DNA of 64,000 nt from Faecalibacterium sp. I3-3-33 (GTDB lineage Bacteria > Bacillota > Clostridia > Oscillospirales > Ruminococcaceae): assembly GCF_023347295.1 (NCBI RefSeq), contig NZ_CP094469.1, positions 372,001 through 436,000 on the forward strand, in the 5' to 3' direction. Position 1 is the stretch's first letter; the number at the start of each line of letters is the position of its first letter. Shown here piece after piece: positions 4,670 through 59,741 of the stretch. The notes under the pieces were generated by a model that did not search any database, was not told the origin of the DNA, and saw only the letters and a program-made list of their open reading frames with translations. Position numbers and translations under genes: made by a program.

Positions 4670-6160
4670 TTGGAAAACGAAAAAAAGACCGGCGATAAAT
4701 ATTCCAAACTGGCCGGCAATACCCTGATCTTTGCAATCTCCAGCTTTTCATCCAAGCTGCTCACCCTGATCGTACAGCCCTTTCTGACCTACGCCATGGC
4801 GGAGATCTCGGATCTGGGTCTGTCCAAGATCCTGAGCCAGTATGCCAATCTGCTCATCCCCTTTGTGTCCATGGGCATGTCCAACGCCATCATCCGCTTT
4901 GGTCTGGACAAGGGCAACAGCGAAAAACAGGTGTTCACCAACGGTCTGCTGACCATTCTGGGCGGCTTTGGCATTCTGGTGCTGTGCTGGCCCATTACCC
5001 AGTTTTTGCCGGATATGGCGCAGTACGGCCTGCTGATCTACCTTTATGTGCTCATGAGCTGCCTGCGCACCCTGTGCACCCAGTTCGTGCGCAGCCGCCA
5101 GTGGAATAAGCTTGTGGCAGTGGACGGCGTGCTGTGCACCGTGGCGACCATGGCGTTCTATGTGCTGTATCTGGTGGGCTTCAAGTGGGGCGCCAACGGC
5201 TACCTGCTGGCCATTATCAGCGGTGACCTGACCAGCGTGCTGTTTTTGCTGTTCACCGGCAGGCTGTGGAACTATGTGGAGCTGAAGGGCGTCAACAAAA
5301 AGCTGTGGCGGCAGATGCTCAACTTCTCGCTGCCCATGATCCCGGCGCAGATCAGCTTCTGGATCATCAACGCCTCCGACCTGTTCTTTGTGCGCGAAAT
5401 GTGCGAAGGGCTGGACGGGCGCACCGGCAACGCATGGAGCGGCCTGCTTTCCACCGGCTACTTCCTGCCCACCATCCTGACCACGCTGGGTCTGATCTTC
5501 TACGATGCGTGGCAGCTTTCCGCCGTCACCGAGGAGGAAGGGCGTGCGCGGTTCTTTACCCAGATCTTCCGCACCTATTCCAGCGTGCTGTTCTGCTGCG
5601 CAGCGGGCATTATCTGGCTGTGCCGCCCGGTGATGCACGTCATGAAGTCCAACTATTATTACGCATGGCATTTTGTGCCCTTCCTTGTGCTGGCTTCCAC
5701 CTGCAGCTGCTTTAACCAGTTTATGAACAGCGTCTATGTGGTGACCAAAAAGTCGCAGCGCAGCATGGTCACCATGATGGCGGGTGCTATCAGCAACTGC
5801 ATCATGAACTACTTCTTCATCAAGCTGTGGGGGCCTGTGGGCGCGACCTATGCGTCCTTCCTTGGCCTTGCGCTGGTGTTCACCCTGCGCGCGGTGGACG
5901 CCCGCCGCATGATCGGGATGCACGTCCACCCTGCGCGGGTGCTGGCAAACGCCGCCGTGCTGGTGTTTGAAGCCTTTGTGCTGCTGGCAGAGCCGCCGCT
6001 GTACGGACTGTGGACGGGACTGATCACGCTGGCGGTCATCCTGTACAACTTTGCGGGCGTATGGGCGATGGCGCGGGTGCTGCTGCCCCGCCTGCTGGGA
6101 CGCCGGGGCAAGGCGCTGGTAGCCGCCGTGGACGGCTGGCTGAAGCCGAAAAAGGCGTAA
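4670..6160 (+). CDS. Oligosaccharide flippase / polysaccharide biosynthesis membrane protein
   Basis: A 496-residue protein with some 12-14 transmembrane helices of the MOP superfamily (Wzx/RfbX type). The N-terminal sequence NTLIFAISSFSSKLLTLIV and the repeated helix pairs separated by short loops are typical. It should move lipid-linked sugars across the membrane. The start is a TTG preceded by ACGGAGGG at a good distance; there is no in-frame ATG with a comparable site. It follows the peptidase gene by 28 bases. No glycosyltransferases lie next to it, so the sugar substrate is unknown. Confidence 0.8.
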   Translation: MENEKKTGDKYSKLAGNTLIFAISSFSSKLLTLIVQPFLTYAMAEISDLGLSKILSQYANLLIPFVSMGMSNAIIRFGLDKGNSEKQVFTNGLLTILGGFGILVLCWPITQFLPDMAQYGLLIYLYVLMSCLRTLCTQFVRSRQWNKLVAVDGVLCTVATMAFYVLYLVGFKWGANGYLLAIISGDLTSVLFLLFTGRLWNYVELKGVNKKLWRQMLNFSLPMIPAQISFWIINASDLFFVREMCEGLDGRTGNAWSGLLSTGYFLPTILTTLGLIFYDAWQLSAVTEEEGRARFFTQIFRTYSSVLFCCAAGIIWLCRPVMHVMKSNYYYAWHFVPFLVLASTCSCFNQFMNSVYVVTKKSQRSMVTMMAGAISNCIMNYFFIKLWGPVGATYASFLGLALVFTLRAVDARRMIGMHVHPARVLANAAVLVFEAFVLLAEPPLYGLWTGLITLAVILYNFAGVWAMARVLLPRLLGRRGKALVAAVDGWLKPKKA

Positions 6161-6293
6161 AGCGGAAAAATTATTTGTGATTTCGGAATCCCGGAGCGTC
6201 TGTGGACGCTCCGGGATTCCCTTTTCATGGGGAGGGGTCGTGGAGGAAAACGGCATTTACAGCGCTTGCTTCCTGCGGAAGCGGCGGCGCTGC
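6161..6293 (-). repeat. Type B repeat, reverse orientation, truncated
   Basis: Hairpin 1 is a 15-bp perfect stem (6185-6199 with 6206-6220) around a loop that reads CCACAG on the minus strand. Hairpin 0 with the second loop lies at about 6259-6292, where GCTTCCTGCGGAAGC contains CCGCAG on the minus strand. The interleaved-stem core is missing: similarity stops at AGCGG, directly next to the flippase stop codon. Confidence 0.85.
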
Positions 6294-11783: not shown

Positions 11784-13538
11784 ATGGCACTGGATGCTGC
11801 GACACTGGCGCTGACGGCAGCGGAGCTGAAAGCCACCCTGACCGATGCCAAGATCGCAAAAATTTTTGAACCGACCCGGGATGAGCTGGTCATCACCCTG
11901 CGCACCCGCACCGATACCTATGCGCTGCTGCTGTCTGCCCGCAGCGGCTCTGCCCGGGTGTGCCTGACCGAGGAGACCTTTGAAAACCCCGAGACGCCGC
12001 CCTCCTTCTGTATGCTCATGCGCAAGCACCTGACCGGCGGCAGACTGCTGGATGTGCACATGGAGCCGGGCGACCGCATCGTCTACTTTGATTTTCAGTG
12101 CACCAACGAGATGGGCGACCTTGTGCGCAATACCCTGTGTGCTGAGCTGATGGGACGCTACTCCAACCTTGTGCTGGTGCAGAGCGGCAAAATTATCGAC
12201 GCCCTCAAGCGGGTGGATTTTGAGGACAGCGATGTCCGACAGCTGCTGCCGGGCTTGCCCTATACCACGCCCCCCAAGCCCGCACGGCCGGATTTTCTGC
12301 TGGTGAGCAGCGCATCCATCGTGGCAGCGGCCTGTCAGCGGGAGCTGCCGGTGGCGGATGCCCTGAACAAGACGGTGGCCGGCGTTGGGCCGGTGGTCTG
12401 CCGCGAGGCGGCATGGCGCGCCTTTGACGGCGAGCATCTGCCCGCCAATGAGCTGACCGATGCCCAGAAGCGCAGCCTGATGGCTGCTATTGACGAGCTG
12501 AAGGAGCTGCACGCGCAGGGCGGCTGTCCGTGCAGCGTCACTGCGCCGGACGGCAAGCCGGTGGAGTATACCTTCTTCCGTCCGCAGCAGTACGGCGAGC
12601 AGTACACCGTCCGGGAGTGGCCGTCCTTCAACGCGATGCTGGAGGGCTACTACGCCGAGAAGGACCGCGCCGAGCGTCTGCGCACCAAGAGCAAGGAGCT
12701 GCACAAGGCGGTACACAATATGTACGACCGCGCCCTGCGCAAGCAGGCTGCCCGGCAGGAGGAACTTGCCGCCAGCGGCAAAAGCGAAAAGCTGCGCCTG
12801 TACGGCGAGCTGCTGTCTGCCAACCTCTATCTGGCGCAAAAGGGCATGAAGAGTCTGACCGTGCCCAACTGGTACGACGAGGGCAAAGAGGTGACCATCC
12901 CGCTGGACCTGCGGTTCAGCCCCAGCCAGAACGCCCAGAACTTCTTCAAGAACTACAAAAAGAAGCAGACCGCCGCCCGGATGCTGGTAGACCTGCTGGC
13001 AGAGGGCGAAAAAGAGATCGCCTATCTGGAAACGGTGCTCTACGAAGTGGAAAGCGCCTCCGGCGAGGCTGCGCTGAACGAGATCCGCATGGAGCTGAAA
13101 AATCAGGGCTACCTGAAATACTACAAGCAGCGGGACAAAAAGCAGAAGCCTGCGGACTTTCTGCGCTATACCTCCAGTGATGGCTTTGAGATCCTGGTAG
13201 GCCGCAACAACGCCCAGAACGACAAGCTCACCCTGCACACCGCCCGGGGCAAGGACCTGTGGTTCCATGTACAGAAAGCACCCGGCAGCCATGTTGTGGT
13301 CATGAGCCGGGGTGAGGACATTCCGGACACCACCAAGCAGGAAGCTGCGGAGCTGGCGGTCATCCATTCCAGCGCCTACAAGGCAGGCACCGGTGCCAAG
13401 GTGGCAGTGGACACCACCGAGGTGAAGAACATCTGGAAAGCCAACGGCGCCAAGCCCGGCATGGTGCTGTACGAGGTGTACACCACCGTCTACATCACCC
13501 CGCGCGAGGGGTTGGAAGAGCAGCTGAAGAAGAAATGA
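11784..13538 (+). CDS. rqcH: RqcH/NFACT family ribosome quality-control protein
   Basis: A 584-residue protein with the NFACT-N domain (1-~200), a central helical coiled-coil (~260-440) and an NFACT-R domain near the C terminus (GRNNAQNDKLTLHTARGKDLW followed by HVQKAPGSHVVV). Asp97-Arg98 in EPGDRIVY match the pair that RqcH uses to bind tRNA-Ala. RqcH binds stalled 50S subunits and adds C-terminal alanine tails for degradation. Older annotations call it fibronectin-binding protein. The ATG at 11784 follows AACGAGGTAAC. It sits alone between repeats. Confidence 0.9.
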   Translation: MALDAATLALTAAELKATLTDAKIAKIFEPTRDELVITLRTRTDTYALLLSARSGSARVCLTEETFENPETPPSFCMLMRKHLTGGRLLDVHMEPGDRIVYFDFQCTNEMGDLVRNTLCAELMGRYSNLVLVQSGKIIDALKRVDFEDSDVRQLLPGLPYTTPPKPARPDFLLVSSASIVAAACQRELPVADALNKTVAGVGPVVCREAAWRAFDGEHLPANELTDAQKRSLMAAIDELKELHAQGGCPCSVTAPDGKPVEYTFFRPQQYGEQYTVREWPSFNAMLEGYYAEKDRAERLRTKSKELHKAVHNMYDRALRKQAARQEELAASGKSEKLRLYGELLSANLYLAQKGMKSLTVPNWYDEGKEVTIPLDLRFSPSQNAQNFFKNYKKKQTAARMLVDLLAEGEKEIAYLETVLYEVESASGEAALNEIRMELKNQGYLKYYKQRDKKQKPADFLRYTSSDGFEILVGRNNAQNDKLTLHTARGKDLWFHVQKAPGSHVVVMSRGEDIPDTTKQEAAELAVIHSSAYKAGTGAKVAVDTTEVKNIWKANGAKPGMVLYEVYTTVYITPREGLEEQLKKK

Positions 13539-13544
13539 TCTGAA

Positions 13545-13704
13545 ATGGCCTCCGCTTTGCTCTGGCCATAAGCTAAGGAAAAAACATTTATTATTTCGGA
13601 CTACCGGAGCGTCTGCGGACGCTCCGGTAGTCCATTTTCACGGGAGGAGCCGTGGAGGAGAACGGCAGCTGCAGCGCCTGCTTCCTGCGGAAGCGCGGCG
13701 CTGC
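13545..13704 (-). repeat. Type B repeat, reverse orientation
   Basis: Hairpin 1 stem 13598-13612 with 13619-13633, loop CCGCAG on the minus strand. The core shows ATGGCC/GGCCAT pairing (13564-13569 with 13545-13550) around AGCGG; the partner CCGCT is degraded to CCTTAGCT. Hairpin 0 occupies about 13670-13704. The element begins seven bases after the rqcH stop. Confidence 0.85.
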
Positions 13705-13930
13705 GGGGAAAGCTTCTGCTTGTCGCAAGCGGGCAGGGACGCTCCGCTGGGCCAGAGGCAGGGAGGGGTGTTCCGATTCCCCCCTCCCTACCTCTGGACT
13801 CCACCCACCCCGCAACGGGCCAAGGGCTACACGCCCTTAACAATCCTAAAGAAGAAGTCGAAGCACAAAAAAGCTAGCGCTGCGCCAGTCGGCGCTATCG
13901 CTTTAACGCTTTTTTCGCTTCTCCATTTAA
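13705..13930 (+). repeat. Type C multi-hairpin repeat, short copy
   Basis: A long hairpin (CCAGAGGCAGGGAGGGG against CCCCTCCCTACCTCTGG, about 13759-13799) is followed by AAGGGC-tacac-GCCCTT and a segment rich in inverted repeats with GCACAAAAAAGC and GCTTTTTTCGCTTC. It is nearly identical to 41250-41595 but lacks about 110 bases after CCCCGCAACG. Confidence 0.85.
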
Positions 13931-13931
13931 A

Positions 13932-14075
13932 GCCCCTCAGTCGCTGCGCGACAGCTCCCCCGAGGGGGAGCTGTCACGCCCGGAAGCTTTACACTTCAGC
14001 CGGAAACCTTCCCGCCATGCCAAAGGCTCCCTCCCAGAGGGAGCTGGCAAAGCCGCAAGGCTTTGACTGAGGGAG
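13932..14075 (+). repeat. Type A MITE-like repeat
   Basis: Begins GCCCCTCAGTCGCTGCGCGACAG and ends with TTTGACTGAGGGAG; inner arms are CTCCCCCGAGGGGGAG and CTCCCTCCCAGAGGGAG. It adjoins the type C unit. Confidence 0.8.
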
Positions 14076-14253
14076 TTCCCTATATAATATGTATAACCCC
14101 CGCTTTTCCCGCCCATACTGATGCTGCAAAGGAGAGTGGGGGAGTTTTCCACCGGCAAAAAGCGTTGAGATTGTGCATCTTGCACAGAAAATGCGGCTAT
14201 TGACAAAACAGAGAAAATAAAAAAGAAAAATCGTAATTTTCTGCAAAAAACAC

Positions 14254-14288: not shown

Positions 14289-14640
14289 CGGCTGCAAAAG
14301 GCTTGTGCGATACAAGTCGTGCAGGCCAGCGATATGCGTTGATGCGGGAGGTTGTCATCCGGCGATAGCTGCGATGGGTTATTTCCGCGGAGTATGTCCG
14401 ATCTTAGAACCGGGCGAAAAAATTACTGACAGCGATGGAATACGTTCCCTCGGCAGAGAAGTTACTCCTCTGCGAAACGGGCGGAACCAATGTTCGGATT
14501 TGATTTGCTAATATGTTTCCGGGAGAACTGCCATGCGGTTCACCGGTTTTTATAGTGCCAAATCGAGGAACACCCGGAACTGTGTAGAGCAATTTATCGG
14601 CTCGCCTAGGGCAAAAACAATTTTTCAGGAGGCGTAAGCA
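14289..14640 (+). promoter_or_regulatory. Long structured 5' leader of the S10 operon
   Basis: No convincing gene lies here. Hairpins can be drawn: GGAA-TACG-TTCC (about 14438-14449), GCAGAG/CTCTGC (14453-14458 with 14468-14473), and further GC pairing around GAACCGGGCG and CGGGCGGAACC. The segment is GC-balanced and unrelated to the flanking repeats, so it is probably an mRNA leader. In enteric bacteria the S10 leader is bound by L4; whether that applies here is unknown. AGGAGGCG precedes the rpsJ start. Confidence 0.5.
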
Positions 14641-31001: not shown

Positions 31002-31172
31002 TTGCAGCGCCGCGCTTTCGCAGAAAGCGGCGCTGCAAATGCCGTTTTCCTCCACGACCCCACCTGTGAAAATGCAATGCCGGAGCGTCCGCAGACGCTC
31101 CGGCATTGCTCTATTTTAAATAATTATTCCGCTGATGATGCGCAAAGCGCACGCGGCGCGCATTCCAAATCG
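31002..31172 (+). repeat. Type B repeat, complete forward copy
   Basis: Hairpin 0 (31002-31037, inner GCTTT-CGCAG-AAAGC); spacer AAATGCCGTTTTCCTCC and GTGAAAAT; hairpin 1 (31074-31088 with 31095-31109, loop CCGCAG); AT-rich spacer; core CCGCT 31129-31133, ATGCGC 31138-31143, GCGG 31153-31156, GCGCAT 31158-31163. Confidence 0.9.
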
Positions 31173-31212
31173 TCCCGCGCACAAGCACCCCCTTTTTTGT
31201 ATCCGCAAAGTG

Positions 31213-33297: not shown

Positions 33298-33307
33298 AAT
33301 CCCTTCT

Positions 33308-33413
33308 GTGAAAGTGCGTTTGGAGCGGCCCGCAGGCCGCGACAAACGCGAAATTTGAAATAAGCTTTCCGCTGAAAATGGTCAGAGCGCAAGCGGAGAC
33401 CATTTCCAATCGT
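33308..33413 (+). repeat. Type B repeat inside a two-component operon
   Basis: Hairpin 1: GCGTTTG/CAAACGC (33316-33322, 33343-33349), internal loop, CGGC/GCCG, loop CCGCAG (33330-33335). Core: CCGCT 33369-33373, ATGGTC 33378-33383, AGCGG 33392-33396, GACCAT 33398-33403. Hairpin 0 is absent. Confidence 0.9.
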
Positions 33414-38705: not shown

Positions 38706-38708
38706 AAC

Positions 38709-38914
38709 GCCCTCTCAGGCGCTCCCGCGCCAGATTCCCCCTTTTGTCACCTACGGCGACATCTTCCCCCGGAGCGGGGGAAGTCTTTCCTCTCAGGGAG
38801 AGCCAAGGTTTAAAGCCCGTTGCTAAAGTATTATGTTTAATAGGAAGGCTTCTGGGCGTGCTCTTGCCTCTCCCTTTGGGAGAGGTGGCATCGCGTAGCG
38901 ATGACGGAGAGGGC
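38709..38914 (+). repeat. Type A repeat, long copy
   Basis: Left arm GCCCTCTCAGGCGCTCCCGCGCC and right arm ATCGCGTAGCGAT with GACGGAGAGGGC. The central segment holds TTGCTAAAGTATTATG, which is the reverse complement of the central part of the copy at 6308, so the core is inverted relative to that copy. Confidence 0.8.
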
Positions 38915-39044: not shown

Positions 39045-39156
39045 CTCCGTGAAAATGGGTTACAGGAAAGTCCGCAGACTTTCCTGTAACCCGAAATTTA
39101 AAATAGTTCTTCCGCTGATGATGCGCAAAGCGAACGCGGAGCGCATTTTAAATCCT
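39045..39156 (+). repeat. Type B repeat upstream of rimO
   Basis: Hairpin 1 has a wholly different stem, GGGTTACAGGAAAGT (39057-39071) with its complement at 39078-39092, but the same loop CCGCAG. Core: CCGCT 39112-39116, ATGCGC 39121-39126, GCGG 39136-39139, GCGCAT 39141-39146. Confidence 0.9.
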
Positions 39157-41249: not shown

Positions 41250-41595
41250 GCTGGGGGAAAGCTTCTGCTTGCTTTCAGCGTGCAAAGACGCTCCGCTGGG
41301 CCAGAGGTAGGGAGGGGTGTTCCGATTCCCCCCTCCCTACCTCTGGACTCCACCCACCCCGCAACGCAACAACTGCGACCGCCGCCAGCGGCGGAAACAG
41401 GGAGCAGTTGTTGGGGCAGCGGCCAGCAAGACGCGAGTGCCGCCCAAGGCACGAAGCGGATGCTGGGTGCCGCAACCCGTCGTCAAGGGCTACTCGCCCT
41501 TGACAATCCTAAAGAAGAAGTCGAAGCACAAAAAAGCTAGCGCTGCGCCAGTCGGCGCTATCGCTTTAACGCTTTTTTCGCTTCTCCATTTATAG
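41250..41595 (+). repeat. Type C multi-hairpin repeat, long copy
   Basis: It matches 13705-13930 nearly base for base on both sides of an extra block of about 110 bases. The block itself folds: CAACAACTGC pairs with GCAGTTGTTG around CCGCCG/CGGCGG. The 3' part repeats AAGGGC/GCCCTT and GCGCTGCGCCAGTCGGCGC. No conserved reading frame is seen. Confidence 0.85.
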
Positions 41596-41596
41596 C

Positions 41597-41636
41597 CCCT
41601 CAGTCGCTGCGCGACAGCTCCCCCCGGGGGAGCGGG
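41597..41636 (+). repeat. Type A half-element
   Basis: GCCCCTCAGTCGCTGCGCGACAG with GCTCCCCCCGGGGGAGC, a left end only, between type C and type B. Confidence 0.65.
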
Positions 41637-41641
41637 CACGC

Positions 41642-41805
41642 CCGCCGCGCTTTCGCAGAAAGCGGCGCGGCATCTGCCGTTTTCCTCCACGCCCCCTCTT
41701 GTGAAAATGCAATGCCGGAGCGTCCGCAGACGCTCCGGCATTGCTCTATTAAAAATAATTTTTCCGCTGAATATGGCTAGAGCGTAGCGGAAGCCATTTA
41801 AAATC
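41642..41805 (+). repeat. Type B repeat, forward copy
   Basis: Hairpin 0 (about 41642-41670); hairpin 1 41709-41723 with 41730-41744, loop CCGCAG; core CCGCT 41764-41768, ATGGCT 41773-41778, AGCGG 41786-41790, AGCCAT 41792-41797. It ends 17 bases from the stop of the minus-strand gene. Confidence 0.9.
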
Positions 41806-41821
41806 GTTTTTCGACGCACTG

Positions 41822-42985
41822 TCAGGAAAGCACGGCGCTTTCCTCCACCTTGTCCAGCACCGCCAGCTGCAAAGCGTTCAGCATACTGCGCTGTGCGCCG
41901 TAGGTGTCGGCGTAGGAACTGTTGGCGCTGTCGAGCTGCTCCTGTGTGGGGGTGATGTCCAGCTGCTCCGCAATGGCCTGAAAAACCAGATCCTGCTTTG
42001 CCAGATGCTCAAAGTAGGCATCGGAATCTGCCAGAAATGCGTCCGCATCGGCGTAGCCCTTGGCCTGTGCGTAGGCGTCCAGCTCCATGCCGTACTTAGC
42101 GGCAAGCTGAGAGTGGTAGTTCAGGAACATACGGATGTAGTAGCTGGTGATCTGAGTGGGGACTTCTTTAAAGGTGGAGTTCGTGAGCAGATAGTCCATC
42201 GCGGCGGTGTCCAGATTGTTGGCGTACAGGGCGCTGTCAAAGTACTGGCGCAGGGCGTCTGCGGTGTGCAGGTCGTCGCTGGCGGCAAAATTGGTCTCCA
42301 CCCACTCGTCGGTCAGGGTGGGCACAACGCTCTGGGTGATGGCGTTCAGGGTCACGCTGAACACGGCCTCCTTGCCGCTGAGGGTGATGGTGTTGCCCTC
42401 GGCGTCGGTGGAGTCGCCGTAGCCCTCCGGGAAGGTAACAGTCACATCAAAGACGTCGCCGATGTTGTGGCCGATGATCTGATCCTCAAAGCCGTCAATA
42501 AAGGTATGGCTGCCCAGCGTCAGGTCGTAGCCGGTGGCGGTGCCGCCGGTAAAGGCTACGCCATCCACTGCGCCGGAATAGTCGATGTTCACGGTGTCGC
42601 CGCTCTGGGCTGCCCGGTCGGTGATGTTCTGGGTGGTGGCGTACTGGTTCAGCAAAGTGTCGATCTGGGTCTGGATCTCGGCCTCGGTGGGCTCGATATC
42701 GGCCTTGGAAAGCGGCAGCGCGGATACATCCTCCGGCAGGGTCACATAGTCCAGTGCGCGGATGCCGGTCCAGTGGCCGTTATCGTCCAGCCCCTCAGAA
42801 TAATCGAAGCTGGCGTAGTCGAAATCCGACACCTTGCCGTAGACGGACACGCTTGCGCCGGATGCGGCAGAGGATGACGTGGTGCCGCTCTGCTTTTTGA
42901 GCAGCATAAAGCAGGCCGCAGCTACGCACAGCACAGCAGCCACCGCGCACAGCACACACAACAGGATCTTGGTAATGCGTTTCAA
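41822..42985 (-). CDS. Membrane-anchored trigger-factor-like peptidyl-prolyl isomerase
   Basis: A 387-residue protein with an N-terminal transmembrane anchor (about 5-28), a Ser/Ala-rich linker, a segment with paired-helix character, and an FKBP-type domain (~115-215; GDTVNIDYSGAVDGVAFTGG and LGSHTFIDGFEDQIIGHNIGD are the typical strands). The C-terminal part is helical like trigger factor. It probably folds exported proteins outside the membrane, in the role of PrsA. The start is TTG 42985 with an AGGAGGT site. It is convergent with pgsA, separated by repeats. Confidence 0.82.
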   Translation of the reverse strand: MKRITKILLCVLCAVAAVLCVAAACFMLLKKQSGTTSSSAASGASVSVYGKVSDFDYASFDYSEGLDDNGHWTGIRALDYVTLPEDVSALPLSKADIEPTEAEIQTQIDTLLNQYATTQNITDRAAQSGDTVNIDYSGAVDGVAFTGGTATGYDLTLGSHTFIDGFEDQIIGHNIGDVFDVTVTFPEGYGDSTDAEGNTITLSGKEAVFSVTLNAITQSVVPTLTDEWVETNFAASDDLHTADALRQYFDSALYANNLDTAAMDYLLTNSTFKEVPTQITSYYIRMFLNYHSQLAAKYGMELDAYAQAKGYADADAFLADSDAYFEHLAKQDLVFQAIAEQLDITPTQEQLDSANSSYADTYGAQRSMLNALQLAVLDKVEESAVLS

Positions 42986-43177
42986 AAGAGATACCTCCTA
43001 AAAATAGCAGACCGTTTTCACGGAGAATGCAAATATCATACCATCCTATTATAACGGAAAAATGCGAAAAGAAAAGATTTTTGCGAAAATTCCACAAATG
43101 TCACCCGGCACAGGTATCACTTTTGCCCGCTTTGGGACGGGAAATGCCGCAAAACCGGTGGAAATACCCCGGCGGTT

Positions 43178-43187
43178 CTGCTACAAT
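43178..43187 (+). promoter_or_regulatory. Extended -10 promoter for the malic enzyme-fumarase unit
   Basis: TGCTACAAT lies 62 bases before the ATG at 43249; a convincing -35 is not seen. Confidence 0.45.
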
Positions 43188-43248
43188 AAAACTGTATGAG
43201 CCTTTCCCTGCAGGGGAAAGCCTTTTGCTGAAATTGGAGGATAAAACC

Positions 43249-44421
43249 ATGGATTACAATAAAGCAGCTCTGGAAATGCACGAGACCCACAAGGGAAAGG
43301 TGGGCATCGTGAGCAAGGTGGAGGTTGCCACCCGCGATGACCTGTCCACCGCCTACACCCCCGGCGTGGCAGAGCCCTGCCGCAAGATCAAGGAAAACCC
43401 GGAGGATGTGTATAAGTACACCTTCAAGGGCAACATGGTGGCCGTTGTCTCCAACGGCACTGCCGTGCTGGGTCTGGGCGATATCGGCCCGGAAGCTGGT
43501 CTGCCTGTCATGGAGGGCAAGGCCGTGCTGTTCAAGGAGTTCGGCGGCGTGGATGCCTTCCCCATCTGCATCGACGCCCACGACGCTGCCAGCGTCATCG
43601 CCGCCTGCAAGGCTATTGCGCCCACCTTTGGCGGCATCAATCTGGAGGATATCAAGAGCCCGGAGTGCTTTGAGATCGAGGAGACCTTGGAGCGGGAGCT
43701 GGACATTCCCGTGTTCCACGATGACCAGCACGGCACCGCCATCGTGGTCACCGCTGCCCTCATCAACGCCCTGCGGGTGGTGAATAAGAAGATGGAGGAC
43801 GTACACATCGTCCTGAACGGCCCCGGCGCTGCCGGTACCGCCATCATCAAGATGCTGATGACCGCCGGTGCGAAGGACATCGTGGCGGTGGATCAGTTCG
43901 GCACCCTGTACAAGGGCTGCAACAGCGCCGAGGCGCACAAGAACTGGCTGGGCGAGGTGACCAACCCCCGTCAGGTCAAGGGCGGCCTGAAGGAAGCGCT
44001 GGAGGGCGCCGACGTGTTCATCGGCGTGTCCAAGCCCGGCATCCTGACCACCGAGCTGTGCAAGACCATGAACAAGGACGCCATCGTCTTTGCCATGGCC
44101 AACCCCACCCCGGAGATCATGCCGGATGAAGCCAAGGCAGGCGGTGTGCGCGTGATGGCTACCGGCCGCAGCGACTTCCCCAATCAGGTCAACAACGTGC
44201 TGTGCTTCCCCGGCCTGTTCAAGGGCGCGCTCAGCGTCCGCGCCCGGGATATCAACAATGAGATGAAGCTGGCTGCTGCCTACGCCATTGCAGACCTCAT
44301 CACCGATGCCGACCGCAGCGAGGAGAACATCATCCCCGGCGCGTTCGACCCCCGCGTGGCCGAGGCTGTGGCAAATGCCGTGGCAAAGGCTGCCCGCGAG
44401 ACCGGCGTGGCACGGTTGTAA
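43249..44421 (+). CDS. NAD(P)-dependent malic enzyme
   Basis: A 390-residue short-type malic enzyme: STAYTPGVAEPC (catalytic Tyr), NGTAVLGLGDIGPEAGLPVMEGK (Lys), FHDDQHGTAIV, and the nucleotide fold VLNGPGAAGTAII. It oxidatively decarboxylates malate to pyruvate. The reading frame opens at 43027, but ATG 43249 has TTGGAGG and begins the conserved sequence. The two fumarase subunits follow directly, so the unit interconverts fumarate, malate and pyruvate. Confidence 0.93.
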   Translation: MDYNKAALEMHETHKGKVGIVSKVEVATRDDLSTAYTPGVAEPCRKIKENPEDVYKYTFKGNMVAVVSNGTAVLGLGDIGPEAGLPVMEGKAVLFKEFGGVDAFPICIDAHDAASVIAACKAIAPTFGGINLEDIKSPECFEIEETLERELDIPVFHDDQHGTAIVVTAALINALRVVNKKMEDVHIVLNGPGAAGTAIIKMLMTAGAKDIVAVDQFGTLYKGCNSAEAHKNWLGEVTNPRQVKGGLKEALEGADVFIGVSKPGILTTELCKTMNKDAIVFAMANPTPEIMPDEAKAGGVRVMATGRSDFPNQVNNVLCFPGLFKGALSVRARDINNEMKLAAAYAIADLITDADRSEENIIPGAFDPRVAEAVANAVAKAARETGVARL

Positions 44422-44436
44422 GCGGAGGACACAGGC

Positions 44437-45276
44437 ATGAGAACGATCTCCGCACAGAGCATTACAGATACGGTGGCGCAGCTCTGCATCAAGGCCAACA
44501 CCCAGCTGCCGCAGGACGTGCAGGCCGCGCTGGAAAAGGCACGGGAAGAAGAGCCGTGGCCGCTGGCAAAGAACACATTAGACCTGCTGTGGTCGAACCT
44601 TGGCGCTGCAAAGGAAAAAGACCTGCCCATCTGTCAGGACACCGGCATGGCCTGTGTGTTCGTAGAGCTGGGCACGGATGTGCACATTGACGGCAGCTTT
44701 GAAGCCGCCATCCACGAGGGCGTGCGCCGGGGCTATACGGACGGCTATCTGCGCAAAAGCATCGTGGCCGACCCGCTGCGCCGGGGCAACACCGGCGATA
44801 ACACCCCGGCGGCCATCACGGTGCATCTGGTGGACGGCGAGGGCTGCCGCATCACGGTGGCACCCAAGGGCTTTGGCAGCGAGAACATGAGCCGCATCCA
44901 GATGCTCAAGCCCGCCGACGGCGTGGAGGGCTTTAAAAAGTTCGTGGTGGATACCGTAAAGCTGGCGGGCTCCAACCCCTGCCCGCCCATTGTGCTGGGC
45001 ATCGGTGTGGGCGGCAGCTTTGACAAGGTGGCGTATCTTGCCAAAAAGGCGCTGCTGCGCCCGCTGGACATCCCCAACCCCGACCCATACTACGCCCAGC
45101 TGGAGCAGGAACTGCTTACCGCCATCAATGCACTGGGCATCGGTCCGCAGGGCTTTGGCGGCAAGACTACCTGCCTTGGCCTTGCCATTGAGCAGATGCC
45201 CACCCATGTGGCGGGTCTGCCGGTGGCTGTGAACGTTTCCTGTCATGTGACCCGCCGCGCCAGTGCGGAGCTGTAA
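44437..45276 (+). CDS. Fumarate hydratase class I, alpha subunit
   Basis: A 279-residue protein of the Fe-S hydro-lyase alpha family (FumA N-terminal/TtdA type). CQDTGMACVFVELG and NPCPPIVLGIGVGGSFDK carry conserved cluster Cys residues, and GFGSENMSRIQML is typical. With the beta subunit it forms an oxygen-sensitive [4Fe-4S] fumarase; L(+)-tartrate dehydratase is the alternative. It starts 15 bases after malic enzyme. Confidence 0.92.
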   Translation: MRTISAQSITDTVAQLCIKANTQLPQDVQAALEKAREEEPWPLAKNTLDLLWSNLGAAKEKDLPICQDTGMACVFVELGTDVHIDGSFEAAIHEGVRRGYTDGYLRKSIVADPLRRGNTGDNTPAAITVHLVDGEGCRITVAPKGFGSENMSRIQMLKPADGVEGFKKFVVDTVKLAGSNPCPPIVLGIGVGGSFDKVAYLAKKALLRPLDIPNPDPYYAQLEQELLTAINALGIGPQGFGGKTTCLGLAIEQMPTHVAGLPVAVNVSCHVTRRASAEL

Positions 45277-45289
45277 GGAGGGGAGAAGA

Positions 45290-45844
45290 ATGGAATACAG
45301 ACTGACGACCCCCTGCACCGCGCAGGAGCTGGCCCCGCTGAAAGCGGGAGATACCGTGCTGCTTTCCGGTGTGGTGTACACCGCCCGGGATCAGGCACAC
45401 AAGCGGATGATGGAAGCACTGGACAAGGGCGAGACCCTGCCTTTTGATCTGGAAGGCAGCGCCATTTATTATGTAGGCCCCACCCCGGAGCGCCCGGGCG
45501 AGGTCATCGGCTCGGCAGGGCCTACCACCAGCGGACGCATGGACGCCATGAGCCCCCGGCTGCTGGATCTTGGCAACAAGATCATGATCGGCAAGGGCAA
45601 GCGGGACGCAGCCGTCAAGGCGGCTGTGGTGCGCAACGGCGCGGTGTATCTGGCTGCGCTGGGCGGTGCCGGTGCACTGATGGCCAAAAGCGTGCAGACG
45701 CTGGAAGTGATCGCATGGCCGGACTTGGGCTGTGAGGCGGTGCGCCGCCTGACCGTGCAGGATATGCCCCTGACCGTTGTGCTGGACGCACACGGCGGCG
45801 ATCTGTACGAGGCAGGCCCTGCGGCCTATCTGGCTACGCTGTAA
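45290..45844 (+). CDS. Fumarate hydratase class I, beta subunit
   Basis: A 184-residue protein of the Fe-S hydro-lyase beta family (FumA C-terminal/TtdB type): VLLSGVVYTARDQAHKRM, YVGPTPERPGEVIGSAGPTTS and a GKGKRD motif. It completes the fumarase heterodimer. ATG 45290 with GGAGGGGAG is chosen; an earlier in-frame start at 45263 overlaps the alpha subunit and has no site. Confidence 0.92.
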   Translation: MEYRLTTPCTAQELAPLKAGDTVLLSGVVYTARDQAHKRMMEALDKGETLPFDLEGSAIYYVGPTPERPGEVIGSAGPTTSGRMDAMSPRLLDLGNKIMIGKGKRDAAVKAAVVRNGAVYLAALGGAGALMAKSVQTLEVIAWPDLGCEAVRRLTVQDMPLTVVLDAHGGDLYEAGPAAYLATL

Positions 45845-45910
45845 ATTGCACCCTTTGCACAAAACAGGGGCAGTGCAAAAACGGCAAAACAGCAGTTCTG
45901 TGCAGAAAAA

Positions 45911-45929
45911 TATGGTTAGTTTAACCAAA
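45911..45929 (+). promoter_or_regulatory. DtxR-family operator-like box
   Basis: TATGGTTAGTTTAACCAAA has the palindromic half-sites GGTTA/TAACC and matches the DtxR/IdeR iron-box pattern (TTAGGTTAGSCTAACCTAA) at most positions. It lies 15 bases upstream of the -35 of the DtxR-family gene, so autoregulation is likely. Confidence 0.6.
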
Positions 45930-45944
45930 CTTGCTGCGAATTAC

Positions 45945-45973
45945 TTGCATCAACCGCAAAAGTGTGATATCCT
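45945..45973 (+). promoter_or_regulatory. Promoter of the DtxR-family gene
   Basis: TTGCAT (45945-45950), 17 bases, TATCCT (45968-45973). Confidence 0.6.
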
Positions 45974-46050
45974 TTAACATACGACAGAGGGTACAAATAC
46001 TCTGTCGGAAAAATCCCCCAGAGGGAATAAGGCAGGAGGCCGGACAAACC

Positions 46051-46440
46051 ATGCAGATCCACCAGTCCGCAGAAGATTATCTTGAAACGATCCTGATGCT
46101 GAGCCAGCGTATGGGCAAAGTGCGCTCCATTGATGTTGTCAATGAGTTGGGCTTTACCAAAGCCAGCGTGAGCATCGCCATGAAAAAGCTGCGGGAGAAC
46201 GGCTATATCGCGGTGGACGGCGAAGGCAACCTGACCCTGCTGGAGCCCGGGCTGGAGATCGCTCAGCGCATTTACAGCCGCCACCAGCTGCTGACCCACT
46301 TCTTTGTGCAGCTGGGCGTGGACGAGCAGACCGCCGCCGAGGACGCCTGCAAGGCAGAGCACATCCTCAGCGAGCAGACGCTGGAAAAGATCCGCGAAAG
46401 CGCCCTGCGCAACGATGCCACCCATCCGCAGGCAAAGTAA
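46051..46440 (+). CDS. DtxR-family metal-dependent transcriptional regulator
   Basis: A 129-residue repressor with the typical start HQSAEDYLETILML, a winged helix (VRSIDVVNELGFTKASVSIAMKKLRENGYI) and a short helical dimerisation domain with the metal-binding residues EAC-like DACKAEHILSE. It is MntR-sized, without the SH3 domain of DtxR. It should sense manganese or iron. ATG 46051 follows CAGGAGG; the longer frame from 45931 runs through the promoter. Confidence 0.88.
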   Translation: MQIHQSAEDYLETILMLSQRMGKVRSIDVVNELGFTKASVSIAMKKLRENGYIAVDGEGNLTLLEPGLEIAQRIYSRHQLLTHFFVQLGVDEQTAAEDACKAEHILSEQTLEKIRESALRNDATHPQAK

Positions 46441-46450
46441 TATGATTTCA

Positions 46451-46492
46451 AAAGATGCCGGAACGCCGAAAGACGTTCCGGTGTCTTTTTTT
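46451..46492 (+). terminator. Intrinsic terminator after the DtxR-family gene
   Basis: GATGCCGGAACG (46454-46465) pairs with CGTTCCGGTGTC (46474-46485), with A/T extension and a T7 tail. Confidence 0.85.
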
Positions 46493-46514
46493 GTATGAAT
46501 TTTTTCGGTTTGCG

Positions 46515-46543
46515 TTGCATATTTGTTATGGATTTGGTACAAT
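46515..46543 (+). promoter_or_regulatory. Promoter of the diguanylate cyclase gene
   Basis: TTGCAT, 17 bases, TACAAT. Confidence 0.7.
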
Positions 46544-46549
46544 GGGTCT

Positions 46550-46629
46550 GTGCGAAAAAGGAACGTTGGTAGAACGGAAAGGGTCGGGACGGCGCAAAGC
46601 CGCCCTAGGGTAAAGGAGAGCGTTGCGGC
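46550..46629 (+). promoter_or_regulatory. Structured leader of the diguanylate cyclase gene
   Basis: GGG-A-CGGC-GCAAA-GCCG-CCC (46586-46605) forms a compact hairpin, preceded by CGTT/AACG. The string GGGACGGCGCAAAGCC recalls part of the c-di-GMP-I riboswitch consensus, but the rest of that fold was not found. An AAAGGAG site follows. Confidence 0.35.
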
Positions 46630-47808
46630 ATGGATGCGATTGCCCATACTCAGGTCAGTGGGTTCTGTCTGGTCACGCTGGCGGTCTTGCTGCGGGCGCA
46701 GCAGAAAATGCGGGATAAAAGCCTGCCCGGGCGGTTGTTTACGGCGCTGCTGTGGTTTGCCGGGGCGCTGACGATCGTAGATTATAGCAGTGCGCTGGCG
46801 CAGCTGGGCGCGTGGGAGGAGCTGGGCATCCCCTTGACCTACCGGCTGAACGCCGGGGGCAGTATTTTGTTTTATCTGCTGGCGGCGTGTTGCTGCTTGC
46901 TGGTGTTTTTGTATGTGGAGGCAGAGCTGGGGCGTACATGGATGGAGGACGGCCGCAGGCTGGCACTCAGCGCCGCACCGGTGACACTGCTTTTGCTGGT
47001 GCTGCTGACGGCGCGGGACGAAAACGGCTTTTGCTATCTGGACGCAGAGGGGCTGCGGGGCAGCACCCTGTTCTGGGGGGCGAAGCTGGTGGGGCTTGCC
47101 TATCTGGCAGCAGCCTTTCTCCGCTGCAGCTGGACGCTGAGCCACTGGAAGCAGGAAACACCCAAAGAGGAACTGAAAACCCTGCTGCTGCTCGCGCTTG
47201 CGCCGGCGGCAGGCTTTTTGCTGCAAGGCTGGCTGCCTGGGCGCGGGCTGCTGTGCTGCGGCATTACGCTGGGGCTGGTGTGCGTGTATGTGCTGGTGCT
47301 GCAGACCAAGTTCACGGTGGATACCCTGACCGGCGTCAGCAACCGCATCGTGGCACTGCGCTATCTGGAAAGTGAGCTGCCCTACTACCGCCGTCATCCC
47401 AACCGCTCGCTGCATTTCCTCATGATGGACATGGATCACTTCAAGCACATCAACGATGAATACGGCCACTTGGAGGGGGATGCCGCGCTGGTGCTGCTGG
47501 CGGGCATTTTGAAAAAGGTGTGCGCCAACTATAACGGTGTGCTGGCGCGCTACGGCGGCGATGAATTCTGCATTGCCTGCGGCTGCAACAGCGTGGAGGT
47601 GCGCACCCTGATCGCCTCCATCCAGCGAGAGCTAGACGCCGCCAACGCCGCCTCCGGCAAGCCCTATCAGATCGAGATCAGCATCGGCTGCGCCCGCCTT
47701 GAGCCGGACATCGCCACCGTGCACGACCTGATCGATAAGGCCGATCAGGAGATGTACCACCTCAAGACCCGCAAGCGCGGCACAGCCCCCGCAGAAAAAC
47801 AGGGCTGA
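46630..47808 (+). CDS. Membrane-bound diguanylate cyclase (GGDEF)
   Basis: A 392-residue protein with about seven hydrophobic helices in the first 220 residues and a C-terminal GGDEF domain (~235-385): DTLTGVSNRI, MDMDHFKHINDEYGH and the active site RYGGDEF are intact. It should make cyclic di-GMP. The RxxD inhibitory site five residues before GGDEF is missing, so product inhibition there is unlikely. The N-terminal part resembles a 7TM sensor of unknown ligand. Confidence 0.9.
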   Translation: MDAIAHTQVSGFCLVTLAVLLRAQQKMRDKSLPGRLFTALLWFAGALTIVDYSSALAQLGAWEELGIPLTYRLNAGGSILFYLLAACCCLLVFLYVEAELGRTWMEDGRRLALSAAPVTLLLLVLLTARDENGFCYLDAEGLRGSTLFWGAKLVGLAYLAAAFLRCSWTLSHWKQETPKEELKTLLLLALAPAAGFLLQGWLPGRGLLCCGITLGLVCVYVLVLQTKFTVDTLTGVSNRIVALRYLESELPYYRRHPNRSLHFLMMDMDHFKHINDEYGHLEGDAALVLLAGILKKVCANYNGVLARYGGDEFCIACGCNSVEVRTLIASIQRELDAANAASGKPYQIEISIGCARLEPDIATVHDLIDKADQEMYHLKTRKRGTAPAEKQG

Positions 47809-47833
47809 ACGGTTGTGACCTTACTATAACACG

Positions 47834-47972
47834 ATAAATGCCGTTTGCCTTTACGGCTTTTCCCGTGAAAAATGCAATACCGGAGCGTCCGCAGACGCTC
47901 CGGTATTGCTCTATATAAAAATAATTTTTCCGCTGATGATGCGCAGAGCAACGCGGAGCGCATTCCAAATCG
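47834..47972 (+). repeat. Type B repeat, forward copy
   Basis: Hairpin 1: GCAATACCGGAGCGT (47874-47888) with complement 47895-47909, loop CCGCAG. Core: CCGCT 47930-47934, ATGCGC 47939-47944, GCGG 47953-47956, GCGCAT 47958-47963. Hairpin 0 is reduced to AAATGCCGT...ACGGC. Confidence 0.9.
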
Positions 47973-48013
47973 TCCCGCTCGGCGTTTTCTAAACGTTTTT
48001 TACCCTTCTGCCC

Positions 48014-48042
48014 TTGCATCCCGGGATGGAACGCGGTATTCT
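48014..48042 (+). promoter_or_regulatory. Promoter of the SNF2 helicase gene
   Basis: TTGCAT (48014-48019), 17 bases, TATTCT (48037-48042). Confidence 0.6.
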
Positions 48043-48087
48043 TATAGAATAGACTGGAACCGCGACAGCACAGGGGAGGGAGACCAC

Positions 48088-51000
48088 ATGGACGCACAGG
48101 AGATCCGCGCATTGCTGGGCAAAAGCATCTTTGAGCGGGCGCAGAAGTACCGCAAGCGCATCCTGCAAAGCAGCTGCACCACCAACGAGGACGGGGTGCG
48201 GCACCTGACAGCACTGGTGCAGGGCAGCGGGCCGGACTGCTATTATACGCAGGTCTGGCTGCGGGAAAACGGCAGCTTTGTCAGCGCCTCCTGCGACTGC
48301 CCCTATAACCAGAACGGCGATGGCACCTACTGTAAGCACATTGGTGCGCTGCTGCTGCAGGACGCGGAAAAGAACCCGCCTGCCCCGGAAAAAAAGCCGG
48401 AGAGCATCCCCGGGGTGCAGCGGGGCGTGGCGGGCTTGAGCACCGAACCCCGCAAGGACAGTTACAGCGCCGGGCTGGATATGCTGTTCGGCCGCAAGTG
48501 GCGGGGAGAAGAGCCGGAGACCGACTATGATGCCCAGCTGTTGCTGAAGCGCTACCAGCGGGAGGATGCGCAGCCCCAGCCCCAGAACGCCGCCCAGCGC
48601 ACCGGCTTTGCTCTGCTGGAACCGGAGCTTACGCCGCACAATGGCCGTATCTGGCTGCGGCTGCGGGTCTCGGACGGCATCGGCGGGCGGCAGTATCTGA
48701 TAAAAAGTATCCCGCAGCTTTTGCAGGCGATCGAGCAGGGCGAAAGCGTCAGCTACGGGAAATCGCTGGCGTTTGTGCACCGGTGGGACGCTTTTGCCCC
48801 GGACGCACAGCAGCTGCTGCGGCTGCTGCGCCGTCAGGTGAGCGCCCGGCAGGCGTTTGAAGCCGAGGGCACGGTGCGCTCCGCTTGGGAGAAAGGCCCG
48901 GCGGGCGGTCTGCCGCTGACCGGCGAGGGGCTGGATGCCCTTGTGGAGCTTTACGCCGCCGAGGGCGTCGTGGGCGGCTACACCCTTAAAGAGGGACTGC
49001 CGGTCATCAGCCTGAAGGTGGAGCGCCGCAAAGGCGGCGTGCAGCTAAGCTGTACCCCGGCGCTCAGCGGGGTGCAGGGGCTGGACTATGCCTATCTGCT
49101 GGGCGAAACCACCCTCTGGCGGATGCAGCGGGAGGAGTGCCGCCGGGTGCTGCCGGTGCTGGAGACCTTTGGCGGGCGCAGTTTGTTCTTTACCAGCGCG
49201 GATGCCGCCGCTTTTTGCAGCTATGTGCTGCCGGAGCTGGGCAACCGGGTCAACATCGTGGACCCCGACCGGCTGCTGCTGAACCAGATCCCGCTGGAAC
49301 CGGTGGTGCAGTTTTATCTGGATGCCGACCGGGGGCTTACCGTCACGGCGTACCCGGTCTTTCTCTACGGCGAGGACAGGGTAGCCCCCGGCGAGCCGGT
49401 GCCGCCGGATCTTTTGCGGGACGCCCGCACCGAGAACCGGGCAAAGCGGCTGCTGGAAACCTATCTGGAACCCGAGACCGGCAAGCCGGGGCATTACAGC
49501 ATTTCCGGGGAGGAGGCGCTTTTCCAGCTGCTGGAAGAGGGCATCCCCGCCCTGCTGGCCATGGGCGAGGTGTACCAGACCGATGCCTTCCGCAACTTAC
49601 AGGCCGCCCCGCCTAAAATTTCGGTAGGGGTGTCGGTGCACGGCAGCGTGCTGGATTTGGAAGTGGACACCGGCGCGTTCCCGGTGGAGGAGCTGCGGGA
49701 GCTTTTGCAGTCTCTGCACCAGAAAAAACGCTACCACCGCCTGCGGGACGGCAGTCTGCTGCGGCTGGACGACAGTCTGGAAGGACTGGACGAGCTGAAC
49801 GACACGCTGGAACTTTCCGGTGCAAAGCTGAAGGACGGCCACGCCGCCCTGCCGCTCTACCGCGCCCCCACGCTGGACTGGGCGCTTTCGGGGCAGAACG
49901 GCCTGCGGTTCGACCGGGATGACGCTTTCCGGCGCATCAGCCGCAGCTTCCACGCCGTGCGGGACAGCGAGTATACCCCGCCGCTCTCCCTGCAAAAGAC
50001 CCTGCGCAAATACCAGCGGGACGGCTACCGCTGGCTGCGTACACTGGACGGCTACGGCATGGGCGGCATTCTGGCCGATGATATGGGTCTGGGCAAGACG
50101 GTGCAGGTGCTCAGCTACCTGCTGGCCATGAAGGAGGGCGGGCAGCACCTGCCCAGCCTCATCGTCTGCCCGGCGTCGCTGGTGCTGAACTGGCAGGAGG
50201 AATGCCAGAAGTTCACCCCGCAGCTGCAAAGCGTTGCCATGGACGGCGATGCCGCCCACCGCGCCGCGCTGGTCGATGGGTGGGCGCAGGCGGATCTCGT
50301 CATCACCAGCTACGATCTGCTGCGCCGGGACGAAAAACTGTATGCCGGGCAAAGCTTCTACGCCTGCATTCTGGACGAAGCGCAGGCCATCAAAAACCAC
50401 ACCACCCAGAAATACAAGGCGGTGTGCCGGGTGAACAGCCGGGTGCGCTTTGCCCTGACCGGCACCCCGGTGGAAAACCGCTTGGGCGAGCTGTGGAGCA
50501 TCTTCTCCTTTTTGATGCCCGGGTATCTGCCCCCCTACAAGACCTTCTGCGCCCGGTTTGAAAAGCCCATCGTGCAGGACGAGGATGCTAACGCCGTGCG
50601 GCGGCTGAACCAGTTCACCGGGCCCTTCATCCTGCGGCGCATGAAGTCGGAGGTGCTGCGGGAGCTGCCGCCCAAAACCGAGAATCTGCGCCGCGTCGAG
50701 CTGGAAGCGGAACAGCGCAAGCTGTATCTGGCAGCGGTGGTGGACGCCCGCGAAAAGCTGCGGGCGGCAAAGCCGGAGGACAAGATGACTGTGTTTGCCG
50801 TGCTGATGCGGCTGCGGGAGATCTGCTGCGACCCGCGCCTTGTGGCGGACAACTGGACCGGCAGCAGCGCCAAGCTGGAAGCCTGTCTGGAACTTGTCAC
50901 CGAGGCAGTGGCGGGCGGGCACCGCATTCTGCTGTTCAGCCAGTTCACCTCTATGCTGGAGCTGCTGGCAAAGCGGCTGGACGAAGCCGGGGTGAGCCAC

Positions 51001-51384: not shown

Positions 51385-51399
51385 AGGAGTGTATCCATC

Positions 51400-53322: not shown

Positions 53323-53342
53323 GGGCATTTTCACGGGTAAAA

Positions 53343-53381: not shown

Positions 53382-53395
53382 GCTATACATAGGTT

Positions 53396-54843: not shown

Positions 54844-54856
54844 GAGGATGGAATAC

Positions 54857-55357: not shown

Positions 55358-55365
55358 GGAAAAAT

Positions 55366-58102: not shown

Positions 58103-58242
58103 GCTGCAAATGCCGTTTTCCTCTACGACCCCTCCCGTGAAAAAGGGGTTCTGAAAAGCCCGCAGGCTTTTCAGAACCCCAAATTAAAAAATCTTTTTTC
58201 CGCTGATGATGCGCAGAGCACAGCGGAGCGCATTCCAAATCG
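58103..58242 (+). repeat. Type B repeat between rpoD and mazF
   Basis: Hairpin 1: GGGGTTCTGAAAAGC (58145-58159) with its complement 58166-58180, loop CCGCAG. Core: CCGCT 58200-58204, ATGCGC 58209-58214, AGCGG 58222-58226, GCGCAT 58228-58233. It ends four bases before the mazF stop. Confidence 0.9.
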
Positions 58243-58246
58243 TTTT

Positions 58247-59607: not shown

Positions 59608-59741
59608 AGATGCAGTTTCCCTCTGCGACCCCACCCGTGAAAATGTGTTTGGAGCACTCCGCAGAGTGCGACAAACACGAAATTATAAATATGATTTCCG
59701 CTGAGTATGTGCAGAGCAAAGCGGAGCACATTTTAATTGTT
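59608..59741 (+). repeat. Type B repeat overlapping the dusB stop
   Basis: Hairpin 1: GTGTTTG/CAAACAC (59645-59651, 59672-59678), internal loop, CACT/AGTG, loop CCGCAG (59659-59664). Core: CCGCT 59698-59702, ATGTGC 59707-59712, AGCGG 59720-59724, GCACAT 59726-59731. The last bases overlap the dusB stop codon. Confidence 0.9.

Follow-up and report, generated by a model that had tools for sequence, protein, structure and literature searches.

Type B repeats of Faecalibacterium: a clade-restricted intergenic family with hairpins replaced as blocks

Positions 31,002 to 31,172 of the window, which is the whole 64,000-nucleotide stretch of the Faecalibacterium sp. I3-3-33 genome analysed here, hold one of nine intergenic repeats, called Type B, in which the two sides of a short stem change together. 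The question is what keeps the two sides complementary. An earlier note on this DNA saw selection on RNA structure, and proposed an H-type pseudoknot or a switch between two mutually exclusive stems; copying and exchange of the repeats themselves could also leave paired changes.

The window was searched with a model, R1, built from an alignment (A1) of 44 copies; these were 44 of 47 matches, two being omitted because they were cut by locus ends and one because it lacked the hairpin. All nine copies that had been claimed were found near the places given for them, and the copy at 6161 is truncated as described, having lost its 3′ module. Strand had been left unstated, and the copies at 6161 and 13545 lie on the minus strand. 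Five further, weaker matches appeared at E values up to 1, three of which are opposite-strand readings of the long hairpin in a listed copy. The 3′ core that the note described is present, but the element is larger: upstream lies a variable hairpin of about 16 bp with a near-fixed CGCA loop. The parts of the copy under study and the remaining window copies are listed here; G numbers denote genomes, G000 being the host. None of the window copies lies in one of the head-to-head doublets described below.

31002..31065, plus strand: inner (centre-side) end of the arm, consisting of a type A hairpin and TGCCGTTTTCCTCCACGACCCCACCT; in doublets it faces the other arm
31066..31173, plus strand: Type B arm as modelled, from GTGAAAA to AAATCGT (R1, 107 bits, E 3.6e-23)
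31074..31109, plus strand: long hairpin of 16 pairs with loop CGCA; the opposite strand has a cUGCGg loop and then AUUUUCAC
31110..31128, plus strand: A/T-rich linker
31129..31133, plus strand: conserved sequence CCGCT, whose pairing with AGCGG is unsupported
31138..31163, plus strand: S2 hairpin, ATGCGC - AAA - GC - GCAC - GC - GGC - GCGCAT
33307..33413, plus strand: Type B arm of S2 type GTC/GAC; in G014 and G029 the orthologous position holds another long hairpin alone, and the module is lacking
39049..39156, plus strand: Type B arm, CGC/GCG, an S2 type common to G014, G029, G009 and G030
41701..41807, plus strand: Type B arm, GCT/AGC; G014, G029 and G009 have the identical hairpin and linker, but CGC/GCG modules
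47866..47973, plus strand: Type B arm, CGC/GCG; an identical hairpin precedes a GCT/AGC module in G009
58137..58243, plus strand: Type B arm, CGC/GCG
59637..59741, plus strand: Type B arm, TGC/GCA; absent from G014 and G029 but for about the last 17 nt
13535..13641, minus strand: Type B arm, GCC/GGC, overlapping the stop codon of a gene called to 13538
6135..6228, minus strand: truncated Type B arm, with the hairpin kept and the module lost

The repeat is real, far beyond chance. The exact pattern CCGCT-N4-ATG-N3-...-AGCGG-...-N3-CAT matches four times in the window, against 0.00 expected from shuffles, and 45 times genome-wide (2.99 Mb, a single contig), with no match for the reversed pattern. 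A relaxed pattern without CCGCT gave 78 matches in the same genome and one, probably unrelated, in 196 other genomes sampled from the family, two of which are Faecalibacterium. At E 0.01 model R1 has at least 126 matches in the host genome and 79 to at least 126 per genome in eight repeat-rich genomes among 31 of the genus, with zero to four in each of the remaining 23; the matches include some to the hairpin only and some opposite-strand readings of a copy. Nine matching loci from repeat-poor genomes comprised one full copy (G016), one doubtful copy (G003) and seven long hairpins without the module. Loci bearing the motif in named genomes are from Faecalibacterium in 42 of 45 cases, the other three being from Acidobacteriota-type genomes, and six of 50,697 records in a phage collection match, all unannotated faecal contigs. 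Type B is a large intergenic family confined to one Faecalibacterium clade. Searches of the open-access PMC literature listed no paper whose title or abstract describes it. Rfam models, applied to the window at curated scores, gave no Type B match and reported only tRNA and an S10-Clostridia leader. The latter, a ribosomal protein leader, lies at 14331-14417 on the plus strand (40.6 bits against a cut-off of 35.1).

Copies for the family-wide counts were recognized by a pattern in which CCGCT, ATG, [AG]AGC, AGCGG, CAT and T are fixed, with up to three mismatches allowed. Conservation of CCGCT and AGCGG, pairing between them (the outer stem, S1), the ATG/CAT pairs and the inner GC/GC are therefore partly imposed; the pattern leaves free NNN, the four-letter stretch L1, the single letters that precede [AG]AGC and follow AGCGG, and the loop letters in front of AGCGG. 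Alignment A3 contains 80 of 81 modules, one poor match in locus L206 being left out; this match remains in the sets of 80 contexts, 82 copies and 130 copies, and perhaps among the 'far' orthologous pairs. Since the 80 contexts, the 82 and 130 copies, the doublets and the 48 close pairs include orthologues, counts from them are not independent.

Read from the inner end, an arm begins with TGCNGTTTNCC..ACGACCCC.., followed by GTGAAAA, the long hairpin (about 16 pairs, loop CGCA) and the A/T-rich linker; toward the module end come CCGCT, the variable letters of L1, the S2 hairpin, TNN and AAATCGT. Among 103 distinct long hairpins, 96 have CGCA as their loop, which on the opposite strand reads cUGCGg, a UNCG-type loop. 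Between the S2 arms, 129 of 130 copies have the order three letters-GC-loop-GC-three letters. The internal loop has ARA on the 5′ side in 128 of 129 copies and GGM on the 3′ side in as many, although the search pattern itself accounts in part for the GC, RA and GG letters. At a position free of that pattern, S2 apical loops of three or four letters begin with a purine in 127 of 128. The core reads as a single hairpin with a conserved, purine-rich internal loop, and AGCGG fits better inside this extended S2 hairpin than in an outer stem. That loop and internal-loop letters are conserved suggests recognition of the folded S2 hairpin by some factor, as DNA or as RNA. In RNA folding, S2 is the more stable on the strand listed above in 153 of 171 copies (means -9.39 versus -8.88), and 80 of 102 long hairpins favour the opposite strand (-28.40 versus -27.13); DNA folding gave the long hairpin practically equal means on both strands. 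The predicted energies agree modestly with the strand assignments.

Pairing of ATGNNN with N′N′N′CAT is strongly supported, and the inner-pair types that the earlier note had read from the window copies are correct. In the 80 modules of A3, 99.0% of S2-helix cells are paired; at the free NNN pairs 238 of 240 cells are paired, in seven recurrent types. Changes on both sides number 83 cells over the whole named structure, versus 30.0 (sd 3.3) in shuffles and 0-13 in slid controls, and all 83 fall in the inner helix, whose paired variation exceeds both controls. Counted as pairs with a double change (4 versus 3.3) or as pair types (10 versus 9.1), the same data stand at shuffle level. The long hairpin covaries strongly too, on the pattern-selected alignment A1. 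The copies are paralogues, as recent duplicates with random changes would be, but an inner stem fully paired in 76 of 82 copies and the excess of double changes over shuffles make pairing by chance scarcely credible.

The outer stem behaves otherwise. CCGCT/AGCGG, reported as nearly fixed, is present in only four of the eight module-bearing window copies, the other four having CGCGG (three) or CCTTA (one), and the combination CCGCT/CGCGG recurs in 25 of 82 copies of the wider set. Among 80 aligned copies the outer helix has no double change, a value that 500 of 500 shuffles equal or surpass; it pairs no better than in its own shuffles, and 33 of 80 copies lack its innermost pair. With an outer pair that never changes on both sides, and S1 fully paired in 43 of 82 copies despite a search pattern that favours its pairing, the pseudoknot is unsupported. 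The order of the four strands does match an H-type pseudoknot, and on the opposite strand the loops (1, 7-8 and 4 nt, counted by hand) would be sterically easier. Yet outer-stem variants are uncompensated, covariation there is at shuffle level, and the GC of the AGCGG strand can find a partner within the S2 hairpin in 129 of 130 copies, so that this strand is better placed within one hairpin. We regard a pseudoknot, or an RNA switch of two mutually exclusive stems, as very improbable.

There remains the inner stem, where the paired change is real but its reading as the trace of selection on structure is weakened by comparison with other genomes. Stretches of G014, G029 and G009 orthologous to the window are mostly about 95% identical to it, and copies differ among them by presence and absence. 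The 59637 copy is missing in G014 and G029 and the 13545 copy in G014; a copy at position 53327 in G014, G029 and G009 is absent from the window; and at position 26804 G029 has a doublet where G000 has none. Shared copies may also differ in one block only. At 39049 five genomes share the S2 type yet show three classes of long hairpin, and at each of 41701 and 47866 an identical hairpin and linker come with different module types in different genomes. Of 48 close pairs, 17 differ in hairpin class and 16 in module type, with one arm changed in one more (21 pairs unchanged, 10 differing in module only, 10 in hairpin only, 6 in both and 1 in hairpin plus one arm).

The window holds other repeats as well. 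A composite repeat has two copies, at about 13705-13967 and at 41254-41630, with pieces 88% and 97% identical, and the stretch 13548-14086 is absent in G014. A 184-nt repeat occurs at 38707-38890 and 60750-60933, the two copies being 86% identical.

Divergence was compared at 28 loci, taking one pair per locus (two intergenic regions contribute two copies each). It was 4.0% in the aligned flanks, 26% on each side of the S2 NNN, 26% in the apical loop, 20.5% in L1, 15% in the linker and 5.4% in the internal loop, with 4.3% in CCGCT and 1.8% in ATG plus CAT, these last two being partly held down by the search pattern. In loci with an altered S2 type L1 was altered too in 8 of 9, against 3 of 19 loci in which the S2 type was the same (Fisher p 0.0004). 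In single genomes the class of the long hairpin does not predict the S2 type (z 0.5 and -0.1), and there is a weak association among L1, S2 and loop (z 0.7 to 2.9). At orthologous sites block replacement affects the long hairpin and the short module separately. Because S2, L1 and loop tend to change together there, the paired changes seem mainly to come from block replacement and from correction between arms, and are not alone proof of selection on RNA; covariation of this strength, which seems largely to reflect such exchange of whole hairpins and arm correction, would by itself overstate the case for a functional RNA.

Identical long-hairpin stretches occur at different loci, in 15 pairs in G000 and 23 in G029. 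Identical modules at different loci number 2 in G000, against 1.25 expected, and are modestly more frequent in G029 (6 against 1.26). As exact module copies hardly exceed expectation, no donor of the exchanged blocks was found among the copies compared, which were only 57 and 54 per genome. One conceivable account is that the hairpins are exchangeable cassettes, moved or converted as folded single strands by an enzyme that recognizes them; stems would then be swapped between loci several times faster than the flanks change, with loop and internal-loop letters near-fixed. We consider this unlikely.

Correction between arms is suggested by the long hairpins themselves. Distinct long hairpins are perfect in 77 of 103 cases, with 37 mismatches in 1619 pairs (20 G-A/A-G, 10 G-T and 7 A-C). 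In one hairpin class a two-letter block is found as GA/GA (24), TC/GA (5) and GA/TC (2), and one locus has A-A, A-T and T-A forms in three genomes. Same-class orthologous hairpins with flanks >93% identical gave five paired and three single differences among those listed, not all of them independent. There was no clear signal of G-U strand asymmetry, with 3 G-T versus 5 A-C in S2 and 10 versus 7 in the long hairpin; this lack of bias, and the resolution of quasi-palindromes in either direction, further weaken the argument from paired change to selection. The hairpin differences fit template-switch correction of the kind described in PMC8794818 (PNAS 2022), where GNRA-like loops are reported as enriched among one-step compensatory changes and the UNCG-type loop class is discussed.

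A purely mutational account would go further, taking Type B as old repeats whose hairpins were perfected by template-switch copying, with neither selection nor a dedicated enzyme. It would accommodate the five paired versus three single differences, the GA/GA block resolved both ways and the GNRA-like loops enriched in that study. It leaves unexplained the joint replacement of L1, S2 and loop, the identical long hairpins across loci in G000 and G029, the head-to-head doublets, and an internal loop that changes by 5.4% beside stems that change by 26%; as a complete explanation we find it decidedly unlikely.

The setting of the copies among genes bears on an RNA role. Genes were called with a simple caller made for this analysis. 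The 80 modules with called neighbours lie in 35 convergent, 42 tandem and 3 divergent gaps, versus 60, 257 and 67 among 384 background gaps longer than 80 bp (Fisher p 1.6e-7 for convergent and 9e-4 for divergent, with orthologues counted separately). In 50 of 80 cases the gene on the module side is encoded on the opposite strand, and in 38 of these 50 its stop codon is no more than 36 nt away. On the opposite strand 164 of 171 copies have a U tract after the long hairpin (at least four T of six, at most 2 nt from the stem end), versus 22 on the listed strand; a stricter rule (at least five T of eight) gives 78 versus 9. A terminator scan of 41300-60000 returned 27 sites against 18.6 expected, calling two of the four copies there, both on the opposite strand and at the top of the list. 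Judged by these sequence features, terminator activity is likely for many copies.

Such counts, together with the near-fixed CGCA loop (cUGCGg on the opposite strand), would suit a functional 3′-end RNA element of host genes, in which a stop codon is followed by the short hairpin and an intrinsic terminator, and selection keeps the stems. The fit is incomplete. No gene reads into the terminator in 30 of 80 copies, and in the 42 tandem gaps the terminator is oriented along transcription in 15 and against it in 27. The S2 loop bias lies on the other strand, neither strand shows a clear excess of G-U over A-C mismatches, and orthologous genes lack the element at several sites. Terminator activity does not account for the tandem-gap orientation or for the S2 hairpin, and we think an RNA element of this kind an improbable explanation of the family. 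A replication bias was also seen, 33 of 45 exact copies being co-oriented with the assumed leading strand (p 0.0025), and was set aside because genes share it (305 of 483) and the origin position is assumed.

A separate two-hairpin element of 113 nt (CAACRAC..GTTGTTG, then GCGGC..GCCGC) lies at 41367-41479 of the window on the plus strand and recurs in L226, L229, L255, L202, L210 and other loci. It was found in 27 of 31 genus genomes; among 16 members, 15 of its 32 predicted pairs are double-changed, and it has no Rfam match at a useful score. Its sites include the apical-loop region of several S2 hairpins and, in the window, the inside of another repeat: the composite-repeat copy at 41254-41630 has it and the copy at about 13705-13967 lacks it. 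In L210, L238 and L239 it directly follows the end of what is presumably a transporter permease gene.

Close neighbours within the Type B family are arranged regularly. In 36 sequences all 11 copy pairs less than 500 nt apart are head-to-head, and so are 26 of 27 pairs less than 350 nt apart when all loci, orthologues included, are counted; wider-spaced neighbours are mixed. These doublets, each a large palindrome, mostly span 225-350 bp between outer module ends, and most of the 28 listed end in the inverted repeats ACGATTT...AAATCGT or near variants; the DNA fold of one has a z of -13.6. Solo copies make up 61 of 83 in the 36 sequences; the inner end is retained in 46 of these 61, traces of an opposite arm were seen within 350 nt of 8, and the type A hairpin accompanies 23. 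The S2 types of doublet arms often differ, so pairing is maintained within an arm and not between arms.

Conserved architecture, restricted distribution, head-to-head pairing, presence/absence differences and orthologous block replacement are all direct observations. Our preferred reading, held at somewhat better than even confidence, is that Type B is the arm of a mobile REPIN- or MITE-like inverted-repeat element in one Faecalibacterium clade, with hairpins exchanged as blocks. The complete unit would be two arms set head-to-head, most copies being solo arms in mosaics with other repeats, and each arm would comprise two self-complementary blocks, a long terminator-like hairpin and the short S2 hairpin. 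Spread of the copies may involve folded single-stranded DNA or ectopic recombination. Their arms would stay complementary through the copying of whole hairpins together and through template switching, by which the arms of a palindrome correct each other, and a hairpin-recognizing factor could keep the conserved loop and internal-loop letters.

Several observations sit less easily with a mobile inverted-repeat element. No transposase linked to Type B was found. No target-site duplication was seen by eye at doublet flanks or near 26804, sites that offered no precise empty/filled pair for a lone doublet. Doublet arms are not better kept than solo arms (0.68 versus 0.79 mismatches, one-sided p 0.37), unlike in the REPIN report, and one-strand conservation of loop letters could equally mean an RNA function. 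A modular inverted-repeat element, with hairpins travelling as blocks and stems kept near-perfect through copying, is still the most economical account. Type B is an abundant repeat in a major human gut genus, and the speed with which copies turn over at orthologous sites could be put to use in strain typing and in looking for the mechanism of exchange. More generally, whole-hairpin exchange can mimic the usual evidence for a working RNA.

Two kinds of enzyme were considered. Mobilization in cis by an IS200/RAYT-type transposase was rejected, no linked Y1 gene having been found: the host genome has no Y1_Tnp gene, and a Type B module lies within 1.5 kb in one of eight Y1 loci examined (of 17 matches). 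That locus is L259 of G029, where the module is about 130 nt downstream of a gene (1453-2144) that we take to encode an IS200-like Y1 transposase; the seven others examined have no module in their flanks. Repeat-rich genomes have Y1 genes more often than the others (6 of 8 versus 5 of 23; Fisher p 0.012), so a Y1 enzyme might act in trans. Reverse transcriptases of the retron or DGR kind were likewise rejected, with none in the host genome and a presence in 5 of 8 repeat-rich versus 8 of 23 other genomes.

Among known systems, intrinsic terminators share with Type B a GC-rich hairpin followed by a U tract, found here on the opposite strand and with a UNCG-type loop; unlike them, Type B is repeated, turned over between loci and often facing no gene. 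The enterobacterial ERIC/RU repeats and bacterial MITEs are intergenic imperfect palindromes of 100-300 bp, and Type B doublets carry terminal inverted repeats as MITEs do. The host is another, and Type B is set apart, by description only, in its nested modular hairpins and in that no target-site duplication was seen by eye.

The closest likeness is to REPINs, the REP doublets associated with RAYT, which are described as high-copy, extragenic, inverted doublets that form a hairpin, with compensatory changes on the hairpin sides, singlets read as remnants, and doublets better preserved than singlets (PMC3116915). Type B likewise is high-copy and extragenic, forms inverted doublets and has compensatory hairpin changes. 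It differs in its arm of about 110-170 nt with two nested hairpins, in doublets that are no better preserved, in block replacement, and in having neither a GTAG/CGTC tag at the stem nor a linked RAYT that we could find. GTAG or CGTC stands directly 5′ or 3′ of the S2 stem in 0 of 190 copies, although CGTC occurs within 15 nt 3′ of the stem in 69 of 190. With the tag and a linked RAYT both sought and not found, we do not class Type B as a member of REP/REPIN. The main text of the survey in PMC3733652 mentions neither Firmicutes nor Faecalibacterium. In that survey REPs lie predominantly between unidirectional and convergent genes, near gene 3′ ends, and the CGTC-tagged families have no dedicated transposase; Type B resembles GTAG- and CGTC-tagged REPs in its placement at gene 3′ ends in convergent and unidirectional gaps, and the CGTC families in that no linked transposase was found.
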